Shown here: piece by piece, positions 52,044 to 59,484 of the stretch | Position numbering within the stretch: position 1 is the first letter of the stretch | Layout of the letters: every line of letters begins with the position of its first letter | Origin: Flavobacteriales bacterium | Lineage (GTDB): Bacteria > Bacteroidota > Bacteroidia > Flavobacteriales_C > GCA-002722245 | Reading direction: 5' to 3' | DNA: 64,000 nucleotides | Assembly: GCA_947444925.1 (NCBI GenBank) | Contig: CANFBW010000002.1 | Coordinates: forward strand, 1-64,000 | The notes under the pieces: generated by a model | Databases searched by the model: none | The model's input: only the letters and a program-made list of their open reading frames with translations | Told to the model about the DNA's origin: nothing | Translations under genes and position numbers: made by a program

Positions 52044-54836
52044 ATGAAACTAAGACTACTATTGTTTTTATCCTTATTGTATTCGGCGGTAACGCTGGCT
52101 TTTTCGCCCAGCATGTACACATTCACCGCGAGTGAATACGACAATCACCAAGAGAATTACAGTGCAGTATACAACAATTCTGGATTGCTCTATGTCGCCA
52201 ATGCATACGGTTTACTTGAGTATGACGGATACGAGTGGAATAGGATTGCGTTGCCTGACGGCAAGAGTCCTGTTTCATTGTGCTTAAAAGACGGCGTGGT
52301 ATATGTTGGAGGCAACGATGAGTTTGGTTACATCAAGTACTCGCGCGGTGCACCTTCTTGCTATCAATCATTGGCGTCGTTACTGCCAACTGCTGAGAAG
52401 AATAAAATTGGTTGGCTTGACCATTGCGTGGAGGCGAATGGCAAAGTGTATTTTTCAAACAACGAAAAGGTGATCGTTTACGATGGCCAGTCGGTTTTGG
52501 TGCTAAAGCCTACAAATGGAAATTCGTTTTTGTCGCTTGATTACAGCATGGGGCAGTTGTTTCTTTTTGAGAAGGGTAGAGGAATTGGCGTTTTTGAAAA
52601 CAACGACATTGAATGGATGGGCAGTTCTGTTGCGAATTTGAATGTGGTGAACATAGAGAAAGTGTCTTCTAAGTTGTACTACTTGTATACTGTTGATGGT
52701 ATTTACAAATTTGATGGTGTACACGCTGAAAAAATCGAGAAAACTAATTTTTTGAGTACGCTTGTTGTAACGCAAGTGCTGGCAAAAGGCAGTAAAAAAG
52801 TGCTGTGCACGGAACTGGGCGGCGTTTATATTTTAGACGATCAATTGGATGTGCAATCTCATTTTGACCACAGCAACAGCAAGCTCAGTACAAATTTTAT
52901 TTATGGTGTGGCTGAGAACAAAGAAGGTGATCTTTGTTTTGCAAGTGCGAATGGGATTGCACTTTTGAACGCGAGTTCGTCACTCTTGAATATTGACGCA
53001 GCAAGTGGTTTGTATGGCGCAGGGTATTGTTCTTTGTTGGTAGGTGATACTATGTATTTAGGGACTTCGCAGGGCTTGTTTTTTGCGCCGAATTGGAAGT
53101 TGAAAGGGGAAAAGAAATTTCAAAAGGTAGCCAATGTAAAAGCCTATGTTTACGACATTCATTTGCAAAATGGGGCATTGTTTTGCGGTAACCGAGCTGA
53201 AATGTATCAAATTATGTCCGATGGCGCGAAGGTGATTTCTCCAAGCACTTATCGCGGTGCATGGGGCATACACGCAGTTCCTGGCAGAGATGATGTTTTT
53301 TTGGTAGGTACCTATTCGGGCATCGATGTGTATCGTTTTGAAAACAAGGAATGGAAATTTTCAAATGCAATAGAGGGCTACACTGCGCCAGGCCGAAATT
53401 TTGAATTTGATGAAGAAGGCAATATTTGGGTGGCGAGTGGATTGGCTGGATTGTATAAATTAAGTATTTCCAAAGATTTTGCAAAGGTGTTGAAGAGTGA
53501 GGAGTTTTGTAAAAAATTCGCTGTTAAAAGCGACTATTTTATAGAACTGATAGAATGTGGAAAAACAATTTTAGTATCGTCTTATGGCGGTGTTTTTAAA
53601 GTTGAAAATGGCGCTTTGGTGAAGGATGCTGCATTCACTGCCTTGGGTTTGCCCTTTGAGCGCCTTCGAAAAATAAATAACGATTTGATATATACAGTTC
53701 AAAAGAGAACACCCATCGTTTTGCGTCGCAAAGGGTCTGTTTTCACGCTCGATTCAGCACATATTTTAAACAACGTGAATATAGAGTTGATTGGTAATTC
53801 AGAGTGGATCAGCACCAGCTCTCCTGATGAATACATGGTTGGAACGCCCGATGGTTTTTTGCTCTCCAACAACGCTTCTCTCAAAAAATATTACGGTAAA
53901 CTCACCGTTCGTAAAATTCAAAACATCAATACTGACAGCACGGTGATTGGTGGCAATGTTGACGAAATTGCAGTTTCATATGACAATCATGATCTACGTT
54001 TTACTTTTGCATACTCACCTTTAGAGCGTTTTTATTCGCTTGATTGGTACGTGCTTTTAGAAGAAGACGGCGCGGGCGAATGGAAGAAAGTAGAGAAGGC
54101 GCATTTTAAAGAGTTTTCAAATTTACGCGAAGGCGACTACACGTTGCGCGTTAAGGTAATGTGCCGTTACAATACCTTAGACGAAACCAGTGTTTCTTTT
54201 AAAGTACTTCCTCCGTGGTACCGAAGTTCTTTAGCAAAGGTGCTGTATTTGCTTTTGTTTTTGTTGACCGTGTTTTTGGTATACCGATTTACACAACATC
54301 GGGTAAAAAAAGTGAGTGCAAAAATGCAGGCCGAGAAGGAAAGAGAATTGATGGTGCAAGAAAAAGAATTCAAGGCTGAGTTGCTGAAAAAGGAGTTGCA
54401 AGAAAAAGAAACGGAGATGTCATATATGGCATTGAATTATAGTCAGAAAAAAGATTTGCTAGAACATGTGAGTGACAAGCTGAATGAATTAATGGGCAAG
54501 CTGGATGATCCGCGCGCATTGCGCGCGGAGATAAAAGGACTGGAGTTCTCGTTGAATAAATCGGAAGATGGTGAAGAACGAAAGTGGCAGGAATTTCAAG
54601 TGCTTTTCAATAGAGAACACAACGACTTTTTAGATAAAATCAAAGTGCTTGATCCAAAAATAAAGGAATCAATGCTGCTTATGTGTGTTTATATTAGAAT
54701 GGGCAAAAGCAACAAAGACATTTGCGACCTCATCAATATTTCGATCACCGCGCTCGACAAAAGAAAATCGCGCCTGCGCGAGAAATTCAATGTTGCAGGA
54801 GAGCTCACGCTGAATGAGTTTTTGCGTTTGCTTTAA
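52044..54836 (+). CDS. membrane-spanning beta-propeller / Y_Y_Y sensor with cytoplasmic coiled coil and HTH output (copy A)
   Basis: Signal peptide, propeller repeats, single TM (VLYLLLFLLTVFLVYRF), C-terminal SNKDICDLINISITALDKRKSRLREKF HTH. Confidence 0.85.
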   Translation: MKLRLLLFLSLLYSAVTLAFSPSMYTFTASEYDNHQENYSAVYNNSGLLYVANAYGLLEYDGYEWNRIALPDGKSPVSLCLKDGVVYVGGNDEFGYIKYSRGAPSCYQSLASLLPTAEKNKIGWLDHCVEANGKVYFSNNEKVIVYDGQSVLVLKPTNGNSFLSLDYSMGQLFLFEKGRGIGVFENNDIEWMGSSVANLNVVNIEKVSSKLYYLYTVDGIYKFDGVHAEKIEKTNFLSTLVVTQVLAKGSKKVLCTELGGVYILDDQLDVQSHFDHSNSKLSTNFIYGVAENKEGDLCFASANGIALLNASSSLLNIDAASGLYGAGYCSLLVGDTMYLGTSQGLFFAPNWKLKGEKKFQKVANVKAYVYDIHLQNGALFCGNRAEMYQIMSDGAKVISPSTYRGAWGIHAVPGRDDVFLVGTYSGIDVYRFENKEWKFSNAIEGYTAPGRNFEFDEEGNIWVASGLAGLYKLSISKDFAKVLKSEEFCKKFAVKSDYFIELIECGKTILVSSYGGVFKVENGALVKDAAFTALGLPFERLRKINNDLIYTVQKRTPIVLRRKGSVFTLDSAHILNNVNIELIGNSEWISTSSPDEYMVGTPDGFLLSNNASLKKYYGKLTVRKIQNINTDSTVIGGNVDEIAVSYDNHDLRFTFAYSPLERFYSLDWYVLLEEDGAGEWKKVEKAHFKEFSNLREGDYTLRVKVMCRYNTLDETSVSFKVLPPWYRSSLAKVLYLLLFLLTVFLVYRFTQHRVKKVSAKMQAEKERELMVQEKEFKAELLKKELQEKETEMSYMALNYSQKKDLLEHVSDKLNELMGKLDDPRALRAEIKGLEFSLNKSEDGEERKWQEFQVLFNREHNDFLDKIKVLDPKIKESMLLMCVYIRMGKSNKDICDLINISITALDKRKSRLREKFNVAGELTLNEFLRLL

Positions 54837-54890
54837 CACGTCGGTGATATCCATTGAGGGATAGCTTTGATTTTTGGCGGCTTTTTGCTT

Positions 54891-54898
54891 TATATTTG
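54891..54898 (+). promoter_or_regulatory. Bacteroidota -7 element (TATATTTG) upstream of regulator copy B
   Basis: TATATTTG 73 nt before the ATG at 54971. Confidence 0.5.
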
Positions 54899-54970
54899 TT
54901 TGAAGTACACGAACAATTGCTTTATCTTGTGTGGCGCTACTGCTCCAGCAATTGCTGTAAATAATATACT

Positions 54971-57760
54971 ATGAAGTTGAAGTTATTCGGATTGTTTTTT
55001 GTGCTCAATAGCTGTTTTGCGTTTGCCTTTTCTCCGGCCATATATACTTATACCACTAAAGAATATGACGGTAGGCAAGACAACACCAGTGCGGTATTCG
55101 ATGGAGAAGGCTTGTTGTATGTAGCCAACGCATATGGTCTGCTTGAATACGATGGATACAAATGGCAGAAGATACCATTGCCTAATGGGAAGAGTCCTGT
55201 TTCATTGTGTGTGTATGACAAAAAAGTGTTTGTTGGCGGTAATGATGAGATAGGGTATGTTTCACGCAATGCAGCAGGATTGTCAGTTTACCACTCGCTT
55301 TTACCTTTGTTGGCCGATAGCTTGAAAAAGCAAATAGGATGGATGACTTATTGCGTTGAAGCGGAAGGGAAGGTTTATTTTCTTACCGATCAGCGTATGT
55401 TCGTTTTTGATGGAAAAGGAATTAGTGTTGTACGGCCCAGAAGTGGTGGTAAATTCACGAGCATCGCACGTTCACAGGGTCATGTTTTGCTTTTTGAAAA
55501 GGGAAGAGGCTATGCGCTTTTGGCCAATGGAAAAACGACATGGGTAGAAGGGGTTTTTAAAAATTTGGAAGTGCGCGGAGTGGAAACAATTGGACGCGAA
55601 TTGGTGTTGTATGCCACTGATGGCATTTACAAATACGATGGACTTCGACTTGAGCAACTTGGTAAAACAGCCTTTTTGGCAAAAGAAATCATTACTCGTG
55701 TGATCGCTGACCAAGCGAGAAAAGTGGTTTGTACGGAGCTTGGTGGGGTTTATGTGCTCGATGCGCAATGGGAAGTGCAGCACCACTTTGATCAAAGCAA
55801 CAGTAAACTTACTACCAATTATATTTATGGTGCGGCGGAGAACAAGGAAGGCGACCTTTGCCTTGCCACCGACAATGGCATTTCTTTGGTAAATTTAGGA
55901 GCATCAGTATTGCACATCGATGTGTCGTCGAACCTTTACGGAGCGGGCTTGTCTTCGCTGCTTGTAGGAGACACCATGTATCTCGGTACTTCTCAGGGTT
56001 TGTTTTTTGCTCCATATTGGAGCGGTAAGGGCGAAAAAAAGTTTATTAAGGTGCAAGGTGTTAAGGCATTTGTGTACGACATTCATATGCAGAATGGCGC
56101 ACTGTTTTGCGGCAATCGTTCAGATGTATATCAAATTCGCGGCAATTCGGCGGTGGTCATATCTCCGGAAAGCAATCGCGGAGCCTGGGGACTGCACTCT
56201 GTTTCTGGAAAGAAGAATGTTTTTTTGGTGGGCACTTATTCGGGCATTGATGTTTACAGTGAAAATAATGGAAAATGGTCTTTTTCTCATAAAATAGGCG
56301 GCTATAATTTACCGGCAATGAATTTAGAAATTGATGACGATGGCAATATATGGGTGGCAAGCGGTTTGTCGGGGTTCTATAAACTAGTCGTTGACCGCGA
56401 TTTCAACAAAGTGCTTGCCACTGAAGATTTTTGCGAGAAATTGAAGTTATCGAAGGATTATTTTATTGAACTCATCAAAGTAAACAATTCAATTTTAGTC
56501 TCCTCTCATGGCGGGCTTTACAAAGTGGAAAGCGGGCAGTTGCTAAAAGATGCTTATATGAATGGGTTGGGGTTGCCTTTTGAACGAATTAGAAAAATTA
56601 GCAATGGACTCATTTATACCTTGGACAATAAAACGCCTACGGTATTGAAGTTGGGCTCCAAAGGCTTTGTGATCGATACTGCTCATATTTTGAATCGTTT
56701 GAAGGTAGAGCTTATTGGCAATTTTGAATTGATTGATCAATTTGCCGATCAAAATTATTTAGTGGGCACTTCTGAAGGCTTTATACTTGCTAATAATGCA
56801 GTGCCCAAAAAATATTATGGAAAGGTGTCGTTGCGCAAAATTCAAAATATGTACAATGACAGTTTACTGGCAATGGCCGGGGATAAAGGCGCAGTAATTG
56901 CTTTGCACGACAACAATTTGCGTTTCACTTTCGCCTATTCACCCTTGGAGCGTTTTTATGATGTTGATTGGTACGCTATGCTTGAAGAAGAAGGAAAGGG
57001 CGTATGGATCAAAGTGGAAAATGCACATGTAAAGGAGTTTTCAAATTTGCAGGAGGGGGACTATATTTTTCGCATGAAGGCCGTATGTCGCTATACTACG
57101 CTTGATGAGAGCGCATTTTCATTCACTATTTTGCCTCCATGGTACCGAACTTCTTTGGCGAAAGTGATATATCTTTTGCTTTTATTGAGCGCTGCCTATC
57201 TCGCTTACCGCATGTCTCAGCGACGACTGGAGAAGGTAACAGATAAAATGACAGAGGAAAAGGAACAAGAATTACTGTTGCAAGGCAATGAGTTCAAGGC
57301 TGAATTGCTTAAAAAGGAATTACAAGAGAAAGAAAGCGAAATGTCTTTTATGGCGTTAAATTACAGTCAGAAACGTGAATTGATGGAGAGTGTTAGCGAT
57401 AAGCTGGGTGATTTGCTTGGGAAACTTGAGGATCCGCGTGCGCTTCGTGTTGAGATTAAGGGTTTGATTAATTCGCTCAACAATTCTGACGGAGATGAAG
57501 AAGTGAAATGGCAGGAATTTCAAATTCATTTTAACAAAGAGCACAATGACTTTTTGGAAAAAATAAAGGCGATGGATCCGAAAATCAAAGAATCAGTGCT
57601 ATTGATGTGCACATATATCAGAATGGGCAAGAGCAATAAAGACATTTGCAATTTGCTCAATATCTCTATCAATGCGCTCGACAAGCGCAAATCTCGTTTG
57701 CGGGAAAAATTCCTGATCGCCGAAGAAATAACGGTAAACGAATATCTTCGGCAGTTATAG
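54971..57760 (+). CDS. membrane-spanning beta-propeller / Y_Y_Y sensor with HTH output (copy B, tandem paralogue)
   Basis: 929 aa, co-linear with 52044-54836; SNKDICNLLNISINALDKRKSRLREKF HTH. Confidence 0.85.
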   Translation: MKLKLFGLFFVLNSCFAFAFSPAIYTYTTKEYDGRQDNTSAVFDGEGLLYVANAYGLLEYDGYKWQKIPLPNGKSPVSLCVYDKKVFVGGNDEIGYVSRNAAGLSVYHSLLPLLADSLKKQIGWMTYCVEAEGKVYFLTDQRMFVFDGKGISVVRPRSGGKFTSIARSQGHVLLFEKGRGYALLANGKTTWVEGVFKNLEVRGVETIGRELVLYATDGIYKYDGLRLEQLGKTAFLAKEIITRVIADQARKVVCTELGGVYVLDAQWEVQHHFDQSNSKLTTNYIYGAAENKEGDLCLATDNGISLVNLGASVLHIDVSSNLYGAGLSSLLVGDTMYLGTSQGLFFAPYWSGKGEKKFIKVQGVKAFVYDIHMQNGALFCGNRSDVYQIRGNSAVVISPESNRGAWGLHSVSGKKNVFLVGTYSGIDVYSENNGKWSFSHKIGGYNLPAMNLEIDDDGNIWVASGLSGFYKLVVDRDFNKVLATEDFCEKLKLSKDYFIELIKVNNSILVSSHGGLYKVESGQLLKDAYMNGLGLPFERIRKISNGLIYTLDNKTPTVLKLGSKGFVIDTAHILNRLKVELIGNFELIDQFADQNYLVGTSEGFILANNAVPKKYYGKVSLRKIQNMYNDSLLAMAGDKGAVIALHDNNLRFTFAYSPLERFYDVDWYAMLEEEGKGVWIKVENAHVKEFSNLQEGDYIFRMKAVCRYTTLDESAFSFTILPPWYRTSLAKVIYLLLLLSAAYLAYRMSQRRLEKVTDKMTEEKEQELLLQGNEFKAELLKKELQEKESEMSFMALNYSQKRELMESVSDKLGDLLGKLEDPRALRVEIKGLINSLNNSDGDEEVKWQEFQIHFNKEHNDFLEKIKAMDPKIKESVLLMCTYIRMGKSNKDICNLLNISINALDKRKSRLREKFLIAEEITVNEYLRQL

Positions 57761-58085
57761 ACATACTGTTCAATTGCTGTTCTTTCTATGGTGTTTGAGT
57801 GCTAATGATTATTGTGCCGCTATTGTTGATGGTTCTCGGTACATGTTTTAGTGGATGCGCAAAGTAATTTTGTGGCAAATGAATGATAGTAATTCAATGG
57901 TTGAATTTCATTTGCTGGCTCCCTTATTTATTTTGCAAACAATTGAAAGTAAAAGACTTGAGTTTTTGCTACGTGTAAAGTCAGTGTCGCGCTTTTGACG
58001 TGACATCTTGTTGTTAAAAATTCTCAAATCCTTTGTTTACAACAACTTTATTTTGAGAAACACTTGACATCGCCTCAATAATTGC

Positions 58086-58093
58086 TATATTTG
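58086..58093 (+). promoter_or_regulatory. promoter -7 element (TATATTTG) of sRNA copy 1
   Basis: TATATTTG exactly 5 nt before the closing-stem 5' strand, as in the other two copies. Confidence 0.7.
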
Positions 58094-58098
58094 TGTAC

Positions 58099-58293
58099 GC
58101 TTGCTTTGTTGATAGAAATAGTAGTAGTGTAAAATTGCGTAGTTCTTTACAAGTTAGTTAGTAGTATCAAAGTTAAGTTATACCCCCTATAATAGCTTTG
58201 AAATTTTAGTCTACAACAAAGCAAGCTTTCTTGTAAAATCACTGATAACATTGAGTATATAGAAGCCTCCCTCAAAAAAGGGAGGTTTTTTTT
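58099..58293 (+). ncRNA. structured small RNA, copy 1 (stem element 58099-58226 plus tail and terminator)
   Basis: GCTTGCTTTGTTG..CAACAAAGCAAGC perfect 13-bp closing stem, A bulge, TAGA/TCTA; TCAAAG/CTTTGA + TTATA-CCCCC-TATAA hairpin. Confidence 0.8.
58266..58293 (+). terminator. Rho-independent terminator of sRNA copy 1
   Basis: CCTCCC-tcaaaaaa-GGGAGG followed by T8. Confidence 0.9.
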
Positions 58294-58485
58294 GTAACAA
58301 AAAACTCCCTTTTTCAACTACTATTTTAATTGCATTCCCTCTTGGGTATCGCAACTACTTCGAATTTGAATAAACGTCTTGATGTCAATTACTTAACTTT
58401 TTATTACGTGCAGTGTCAGTGCTATAAAATTAGCCTGGAGGTGTTTTGTACGGCGCCAGAAATAGCGAATAGTTCTTTGCTGCTG

Positions 58486-58493
58486 TACATTTG
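58486..58493 (+). promoter_or_regulatory. promoter -7 element (TACATTTG) of sRNA copy 2
   Basis: TACATTTG exactly 5 nt before the stem. Confidence 0.7.
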
Positions 58494-58498
58494 ACTAT

Positions 58499-58699
58499 GC
58501 TTGCTTCGTTGCTAGAAATAGTAGTAGTAGTAAAAATTGCGTAGTTCTTTTACAAAAGTTAGTTAGTAGTAATCAAAGCCAATACTATACCCCCCTTTAG
58601 TGACTTTGAAACAAAAATCAATTCTACAACGACGCAAGCATTTTATTTGTACACAAGAGTAGCAGTTTATATGAAAGCCATCCGTTAGGGTGGCTTTTT
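58499..58699 (+). ncRNA. structured small RNA, copy 2 (stem element 58499-58639 plus tail and terminator)
   Basis: GCTTGCTTCGTTG..CAACGACGCAAGC (12/13 pairs), C bulge, TAGA/TCTA; TCAAAG/CTTTGA hairpin with C6 loop. Confidence 0.8.
58674..58699 (+). terminator. Rho-independent terminator of sRNA copy 2
   Basis: AAAGCCATCC-gtta-GGGTGGCTTTTT. Confidence 0.85.
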
Positions 58700-58933
58700 C
58701 ATTTTCCTCCCTTTTGCGAAAGCGGAATTGTGAGCGTGTTCATTGCCATACGAAAGTGCCGGCGAAACAGCTTTGAGAAACCACCGATCGAGTAGTTTTT
58801 ACACTTTACATTTTGTTAAATTATTGAATATCAAATATTTAATAATTTGTATACGTATAGAGTCAGTGATTTATAGCTGGTAGTAGAGGTGTTTTGTACA
58901 GGCGTAAAACTGGCAATGGGCACTTCCTCATTG

Positions 58934-58941
58934 TATATTTG
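58934..58941 (+). promoter_or_regulatory. promoter -7 element (TATATTTG) of sRNA copy 3
   Basis: TATATTTG exactly 5 nt before the stem. Confidence 0.7.
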
Positions 58942-58946
58942 AATAT

Positions 58947-59152
58947 GCTAGCTCGGTTGTTAGAAAAGTAGTAGTAGTAAAAATTGCGTAGTTCTTTTAC
59001 AAAAGTTAGTTAGTAGTAATCAAGGTCAATACTATACCCCCCTTTAGTGACTTTGAATCAAAAATCAAATCTACAGCCGAGCTAGCTTTTTCATTTGTAA
59101 GTAATTTAACATCATAAAAAAAGCCCTTTCGTTTTGACGAAAGGGCTTTTTC
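58947..59152 (+). ncRNA. structured small RNA, copy 3 (stem element 58947-59086 plus tail and terminator)
   Basis: GCTAGCTCGGTTG..CAGCCGAGCTAGC (12 Watson-Crick pairs + 1 G-U), U bulge, TAGA/TCTA; TCAAGG/CTTTGA hairpin with C6 loop. Confidence 0.8.
59116..59152. terminator. terminator of sRNA copy 3, probably bidirectional (also faces the 59167-59484 gene)
   Basis: AAAAAGCCCTTTCG-ttttga-CGAAAGGGCTTTTT, A-run and T-run on both sides. Confidence 0.9.
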
Positions 59153-59166
59153 TTTGTGTAGTTTTT

Positions 59167-59484
59167 TTATTTCGCAGTCAACAAAACCCTAATGTCAACC
59201 ATTTCTTCTCTGTTGTATTTGTTGTCAGAACCTTTCAGTAATTCAACGAAGTAATGAAATTTGTTTTCACCTTCTTCTGGGCCTTCAAATTCAAGATCAA
59301 AAGCGCCATTTTGCTCAATGTATTCTCTTGACAAGCGCAATAATTTTGTTGCCAAAGGATCTTCTTCCGCAAGCGCATAATTTCTGATTTCAGTCAATTT
59401 TGCTGCAACTGCAGCAACATCGAAATTCTTGTCGGTGCTTTTGATCAAGTCGTCAAGAAGTTTGTTTGCTTTAGGATCTTTCAT
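59167..59484 (-). CDS. hypothetical small acidic protein
   Basis: 105 aa ORF with no signal peptide. Confidence 0.6.
   Translation of the reverse strand: MKDPKANKLLDDLIKSTDKNFDVAAVAAKLTEIRNYALAEEDPLATKLLRLSREYIEQNGAFDLEFEGPEEGENKFHYFVELLKGSDNKYNREEMVDIRVLLTAK

Follow-up and report, generated by a model that had tools for sequence, protein, structure and literature searches.

In CsrB, RsmY and RsmZ, one short protein-binding motif is repeated in the loops and single strands. A C-rich loop is found in the cuckoo RNAs of alphaproteobacteria, in the Rsa RNAs of Staphylococcus and in RepG of Helicobacter, and the cuckoo RNAs are also tandem siblings. In Bacteroidota, RRM proteins are thought to act in global RNA regulation, and RbpB and FopS have been worked out in some detail. 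FopS RNAs of B. thetaiotaomicron are ∼65-70 nt long, consist of a single-stranded 5' seed and a terminator, and are present in 14 copies at separate loci; RbpB was reported to bind the single-stranded parts of this paralogous sRNA family (PMC11697453). According to a passage of PMC12119571 that cites Adams 2021, RbpB prefers 5'-GUAGGAUA-3'. The RRMs of the eukaryotic Musashi proteins recognise (G/A)U1-3AGU and UAG (PMC12342889).

Here, we have analysed a stretch of 64,000 nucleotides of Flavobacteriales DNA (the window) and found three paralogous noncoding RNA genes side by side on its + strand, at about 58097-58293, 58497-58706 and 58945-59156. The three copies align pairwise over ∼130-146 nt with 78-91% identity, and their transcripts, the ends of which are predicted, would be ∼197-212 nt long. 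Each gene has one Bacteroidota-type -7 box and one terminator. The -7 box, TAnnTTTG, lies 11-12 nt upstream of the closing stem in all copies of the three array-bearing genomes, and RNA 1 is additionally preceded by a TTGACA box. We infer that RNAs 1-3 are separately transcribed, noncoding, trans-acting tandem RNAs of one new family. That the array represents a real, structured and previously unlisted RNA family is, in our judgement, close to certain. The features are as follows.

57970-57985, + strand: element TACGTN5GTCAGT of RNA 1, at -127; a version of it stands before every copy in both other arrays
58064-58093, + strand: promoter of RNA 1 read from the sequence, TTGACA at 58064-58069 and -7 box TATATTTG at 58086-58093
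58097-58293, + strand: inferred transcript of RNA 1; the covariance model matches its structured part, 58097-58229, and the terminator is at its end
58099-58116, + strand: 5' arm of the closing stem of RNA 1 (3' arm 58210-58226), from the fold and two-sided changes
58118-58128, + strand: 5' UAGU run of RNA 1, from UAGU counts and near-zero divergence
58129-58150, + strand: hairpin A of RNA 1, GUAAA/UUUAC, with loop AUUGCGUAGUUC, identical in 9 of 9 copies
58154-58165, + strand: linker UAGU run of RNA 1, UUAGUUAGUAGU, from UAGU counts and divergence
58167-58201, + strand: hairpin B of RNA 1 with its C5 loop at 58183-58187, from sequence, fold and unpaired probability
58266-58293, + strand: terminator of RNA 1 read from the sequence, CCTCCC...GGGAGG followed by T8
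58405-58451, + strand: elements of RNA 2, TACGTN5GTCAGT at 58405-58420 (-92) and GGTGTTTTGTAC at 58440-58451
58486-58493, + strand: -7 box of RNA 2, TACATTTG, read from the sequence
58497-58706, + strand: inferred transcript of RNA 2, structured part 58497-58642 (covariance model and fold)
58530-58698, + strand: parts of RNA 2, namely hairpin A 58530-58553, hairpin B 58573-58609 with C6 at 58590-58595, and terminator stem 58673-58698
58852-58899, + strand: elements of RNA 3, TACGTN5GTCAGT at 58852-58867 (-93) and GGTGTTTTGTAC at 58888-58899
58934-58941, + strand: -7 box of RNA 3, TATATTTG, read from the sequence
58945-59156, + strand: inferred transcript of RNA 3, structured part 58945-59089 (covariance model and fold)
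58977-59151, + strand: parts of RNA 3, namely hairpin A 58977-59000, hairpin B 59020-59056 with C6 at 59037-59042, and terminator stem 59118-59151, which is common to the convergent 105-aa gene
59167-59484, - strand: 105-aa gene, found in 9 of 10 family genomes and without a Pfam match

Like FopS, these are paralogous, multicopy sRNAs of Bacteroidota with a promoter of the phylum-specific kind and a possible RRM_1 partner, as FopS has in RbpB. Unlike FopS and GibS, they are ∼200 nt long, clamped and arranged three in tandem, have no Rfam match, and share neither the length nor the layout of those two families. They would resemble CsrB, RsmY and RsmZ in carrying multiple copies of one protein-binding motif on a noncoding RNA; the candidate motif is UAGU/GUAG here rather than GGA, and an RRM protein would be the partner. 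The 6S RNAs, including 6S-Flavo (RF01685), resemble them in length and in having an open centre inside a long closing stem, but differ in that our RNAs come in three tandem copies, are patchily present in the family and have another core. No 6S covariance model of Rfam 15 matched the window, nor was one among the sub-threshold matches; the 6S-Flavo model found nothing in the window's genome, but since it found nothing in any control genome either, this search was uninformative. Cuckoo, Rsa and RepG RNAs were offered as analogues in the earlier note. The resemblance stands, in that a conserved and predicted-accessible C-rich loop is present in our RNAs, but we found no homology to these RNAs, the architecture is different, and no class of G-rich targets was detected.

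The structure of the family was derived from nine copies aligned by covariance model, one of which is cut by a contig end. In this alignment, 97.5% of the cells pair, and 11 pairs have changed on both sides compared with 3.7 in shuffles (none of 500 shuffles reaches 11) and at most 4 in a partner-sliding control, although an alignment fitted to a structure makes such pair counts lean towards that structure. Of the 18 pairs of the closing stem, 10 have changed on both sides, and these compensations are also visible in the raw sequences. At the level of sequence comparison, a long stem clamping both ends of the RNA is thus proven by covariation. Whole-RNA folding z-scores range from -3.1 to -5.5, and the stems inside the three-copy array are paralogue-specific. 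Hairpin A shows no variation at its paired sites, and its stem is one pair shorter in RNA 1, where the loop is kept. This hairpin is less certain because minimum-energy folds choose an alternative in its region. A candidate pseudoknot, GUAGU with ACUAU, was rejected as it is not conserved in RNA 1.

Where the constraint falls was revealed by the pairwise difference per site among the nine copies, which is 0.011 in the UAGU runs and hairpin A, 0.053 in the C-loop, 0.088 in the stem of hairpin B, 0.27 in the closing stem and 0.32 in the A-rich 3' linker. RNAs 1, 2 and 3 contain 8, 9 and 8 UAGU units, compared with means of 3.8, 2.1 and 3.1 in dinucleotide shuffles. (G/A)U1-3AGU, the sequence that Musashi recognises, is matched by most of these units and occurs 7-8 times in each RNA, and the loop of hairpin A displays one further GUAGU. 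The richest UAGU stretches of the window are at this locus; the best 146-nt stretch elsewhere has 5. Copies differ by one in how many UAG units they have, while the motif is kept. Computed accessibility of single UAGU sites is moderate (∼0.1-0.9). In a search of the family genomes for other UAGU-rich RNAs, the hits left over were either plain TAG repeats or unrelated, at about the level of the reversed control. Near-total invariance extends to every base of the core and not to the UAGU units alone, which suggests further constraints or recent homogenisation of the sequence. Since the UAGU repeats, and not the C-loop, are the most protected part, the RNA may sponge or carry an RNA-binding protein besides or instead of pairing with mRNAs.

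We favour, as a reading that is plausible if still somewhat short of probable, that the RNAs are a clamped multi-site ligand that sponges or carries an RRM protein and has the C-loop as its second module. The sequence comparisons show that the closing stem clamps the ends and encloses an almost invariant core of UAGU units, hairpin A and a second UAGU run, after which comes hairpin B with the C-loop. The UAGU/GUAG motifs could each offer an unpaired site to an RRM_1 protein, with several molecules bound per RNA, and the RNAs would titrate or carry this protein in the manner of CsrB or RsmY/Z with CsrA. The C-loop may be a seed that pairs with G-rich RNA or an additional site of binding, and a common signal could drive transcription of all copies through the conserved DNA elements upstream. 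The window's genome encodes two single-RRM_1 proteins with Gly-rich tails, at C3:66842 and C4:36157. However, RRM_1 genes are present in all five genomes of the genus, array-bearing or array-less, so that their co-occurrence with the array is weak evidence. The sequence GUAGGAUA is absent from the RNAs, and the GUAG part alone is shared with the preference of RbpB; the Musashi match is to proteins of eukaryotes. More tentatively still, tandem clamped UAGU/GUAG arrays could be a CsrB-like decoy system for Bacteroidota RRM proteins in which the C-loop is an antisense or regulatory arm; to our knowledge, no sponge RNA has been described for an RRM protein of bacteria. If true, a clamped UAGU-site RNA would give a direct handle on how Bacteroidota RRM proteins are restrained.

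It was hairpin B that had drawn attention to this locus. Its inner stem, UCAAAG/CUUUGA, is where it had been placed in RNA 1 (58167-58172/58196-58201) and RNA 2 (58573-58578/58604-58609), and the C5 and C6 runs are likewise borne out by the sequence at the coordinates listed above. The UCAAGG/CUUUGA version in RNA 3 (59020-59025/59051-59056) is also correctly placed, but the change had been called compensating, whereas it is one-sided and yields a G-U pair. The subapical stem does differ as described, TTATA/TATAA in RNA 1 versus ACTA/TAGT in RNAs 2 and 3, with the C-loop kept. That the hairpin recurs beyond chance was upheld by the alignment of the copies, the repetition of the three-copy order in two other genomes and the fold z-scores. 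Over the two stems of hairpin B, 7 of 10 pairs are invariant, 2 have one-sided changes and 1 is changed on both sides, in one sequence only. As judged from the differences per site, hairpin B is a module within a larger RNA, in which invariance is greatest 5' of this hairpin.

The earlier note suggested by analogy that the RNAs may be sibling regulators of G-rich mRNA sites. Spelled out, they would be antisense sRNAs with the exposed C5/C6 loop acting as a seed for such sites in several mRNAs (e.g. Shine-Dalgarno-like sites or start-codon regions), and the role of the UAGU core would be to stabilise the RNA or to bind a chaperone. That the three are sibling noncoding RNAs agrees with our results, as each has its own promoter box and terminator and the predicted-accessible C-run is kept throughout. 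A loop C-run not conserved in homologues was one of the outcomes named there as counting against the idea, but the run is present in every orthologue and paralogue. Such a seed is also in line with the conservation of the loop as UAUACCCCC in 9 of 9 copies while the stem below it changes, with the predicted unpaired probability of the C-run (0.89-1.00 in the 8 of 8 complete copies), and with composition being an improbable source of the run, a C5 run occurring in at most ∼0.6% of dinucleotide shuffles of each RNA. On the other hand, constraint on the C-loop is weaker than on the UAGU segment, and a common G-rich mRNA target was not borne out. The 9-mer complementary to UAUACCCCC, GGGGGTATA, occurs 5, 4 and 2 times outside the arrays of the array-bearing genomes, compared with 8, 5 and 4 for the reversed control, and is thus unenriched there, in a comparison that does not cover short mismatched seeds; in two array-less genomes it occurs 6 and 7 times (control, 12 and 1). 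The sites read on the forward strand of the contig have no gene in common and are mostly within coding sequence. G000, G007 and the array-less G006 have more GGGGGG within 12 nt of an ATG than the reversed control, the largest number of sites being that of G006, and there is hardly an excess in G008 and G009; an array-less relative thus has such sites at least as often as array-bearing genomes. These 9-mer and G6 counts, which make a coarse test, gave no sign of an array-linked class of G-rich targets. One G6 match common to four genomes lies in what we take to be 23S rRNA, and two of the matches in G007 sit in a large inverted repeat. In that genome, a large inverted repeat with CATTACCCCCCTAAG...CTTAGGGGGGGAATG (L109:1319-1460), 3' of an RRM gene, is MITE-like. 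We regard antisense action through the C-loop as possible but doubtful; it can be true together with a multi-site RRM ligand.

The invariance of nearly all core bases, beyond the motifs, the covarying stem that clamps the core, and three copies whose stems are paralogue-specific would also be expected of a lineage-specific structured RNA (a guide, a scaffold or a polymerase-binding RNA), in which the whole core is recognised in three dimensions and UAGU and C-loop form one folded site. We consider this unlikely, as no gene for a partner protein travels with the array: one flank is variable, and the neighbouring 105-aa gene is also found without the array. That only 3 of 10 family genomes have the array moreover argues against an RNA as universal as 6S. 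Tandem arrays of small-peptide genes exist (Ibs/Sib), and the frame of a leaderless peptide in RNAs 2 and 3, e.g. MLTLLLEIVVVVKIA, is open in 4 of 9 copies, as type I toxin-like genes might have it. Yet indels break this frame in RNA 3 of the window's genome and in RNA 2 of G008, no RNA 1 copy has its start codon, the changes in the stems are compensatory and not synonymous, and the sequence is equally invariant past the end of the frame. With no conserved frame found in any of the six frames of the family, we rejected a coding role, and short-peptide genes are a highly improbable explanation of the array.

A genome search found exactly three copies in the window's genome. Orthologous three-copy arrays in the same order are present in two of the four other genomes of the genus, G007 (JAHEZL010000015.1) and G008 (JAPLEZ010000155.1), and covariance models detected the array in 3 of 10 genomes of the family, with no convincing copy in the other genus of this family. 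Covariance-model searches of a class sample (395 genomes) and a phylum sample (396) returned same-genus arrays only, as did a contig pattern scan, three viral-contig scans, and phage and plasmid searches. Weak matches outside the genus in G012 (E 0.014) and G629 (E 0.058) were rejected, as they are without the C-run and have E-values to be expected when this many genomes are searched. Searching the whole window and the region against Rfam 15 gave nothing above the gathering score; the sub-threshold matches are mostly on terminator hairpins and differ between copies. The RNAs would add to Rfam a covariation-supported family from an uncultured lineage. The 105-aa gene marks the insertion site of the array, and on one side the flanking genes vary between array genomes. 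In the array-less G006 and G009, the junction is compact: directly behind the 105-aa gene come its terminator and then the next gene, which leaves no space for the RNAs. The genus-limited pattern and these array-less junctions make this a narrow chromosomal array that was gained or lost. At 52044-57760 of the window, two similar 930-aa genes stand in tandem; they resemble membrane sensors with a helix-turn-helix at one end, and the second has no Pfam match at E 0.001. A relative adjoins the 105-aa gene in G006.

Conserved DNA elements precede the RNA promoters at fixed distances and are probably sites for a regulator. TACGTN5GTCAG keeps its spacing across the arrays, at -126 to -128 for RNA 1 and at -92 or -93 for RNAs 2 and 3, with the variant GGCAG before RNA 3 of G007. 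The GGTGTTTTGTAC element precedes RNAs 2 and 3 only and is kept in both other arrays, and TGTTTTGTA stands at -55 before the same two RNAs. Orthologue identity over the upstream 130 nt is 57-83%. We would like to point out that a lone match to the combined upstream elements is found in the array-less G009 (G009:C1:75518-75554, - strand; L073:1501-1537), directly 3' of the stop codon that ends a gene encoding a T9SS-like C-terminus, where it may be due to chance or be a remnant.
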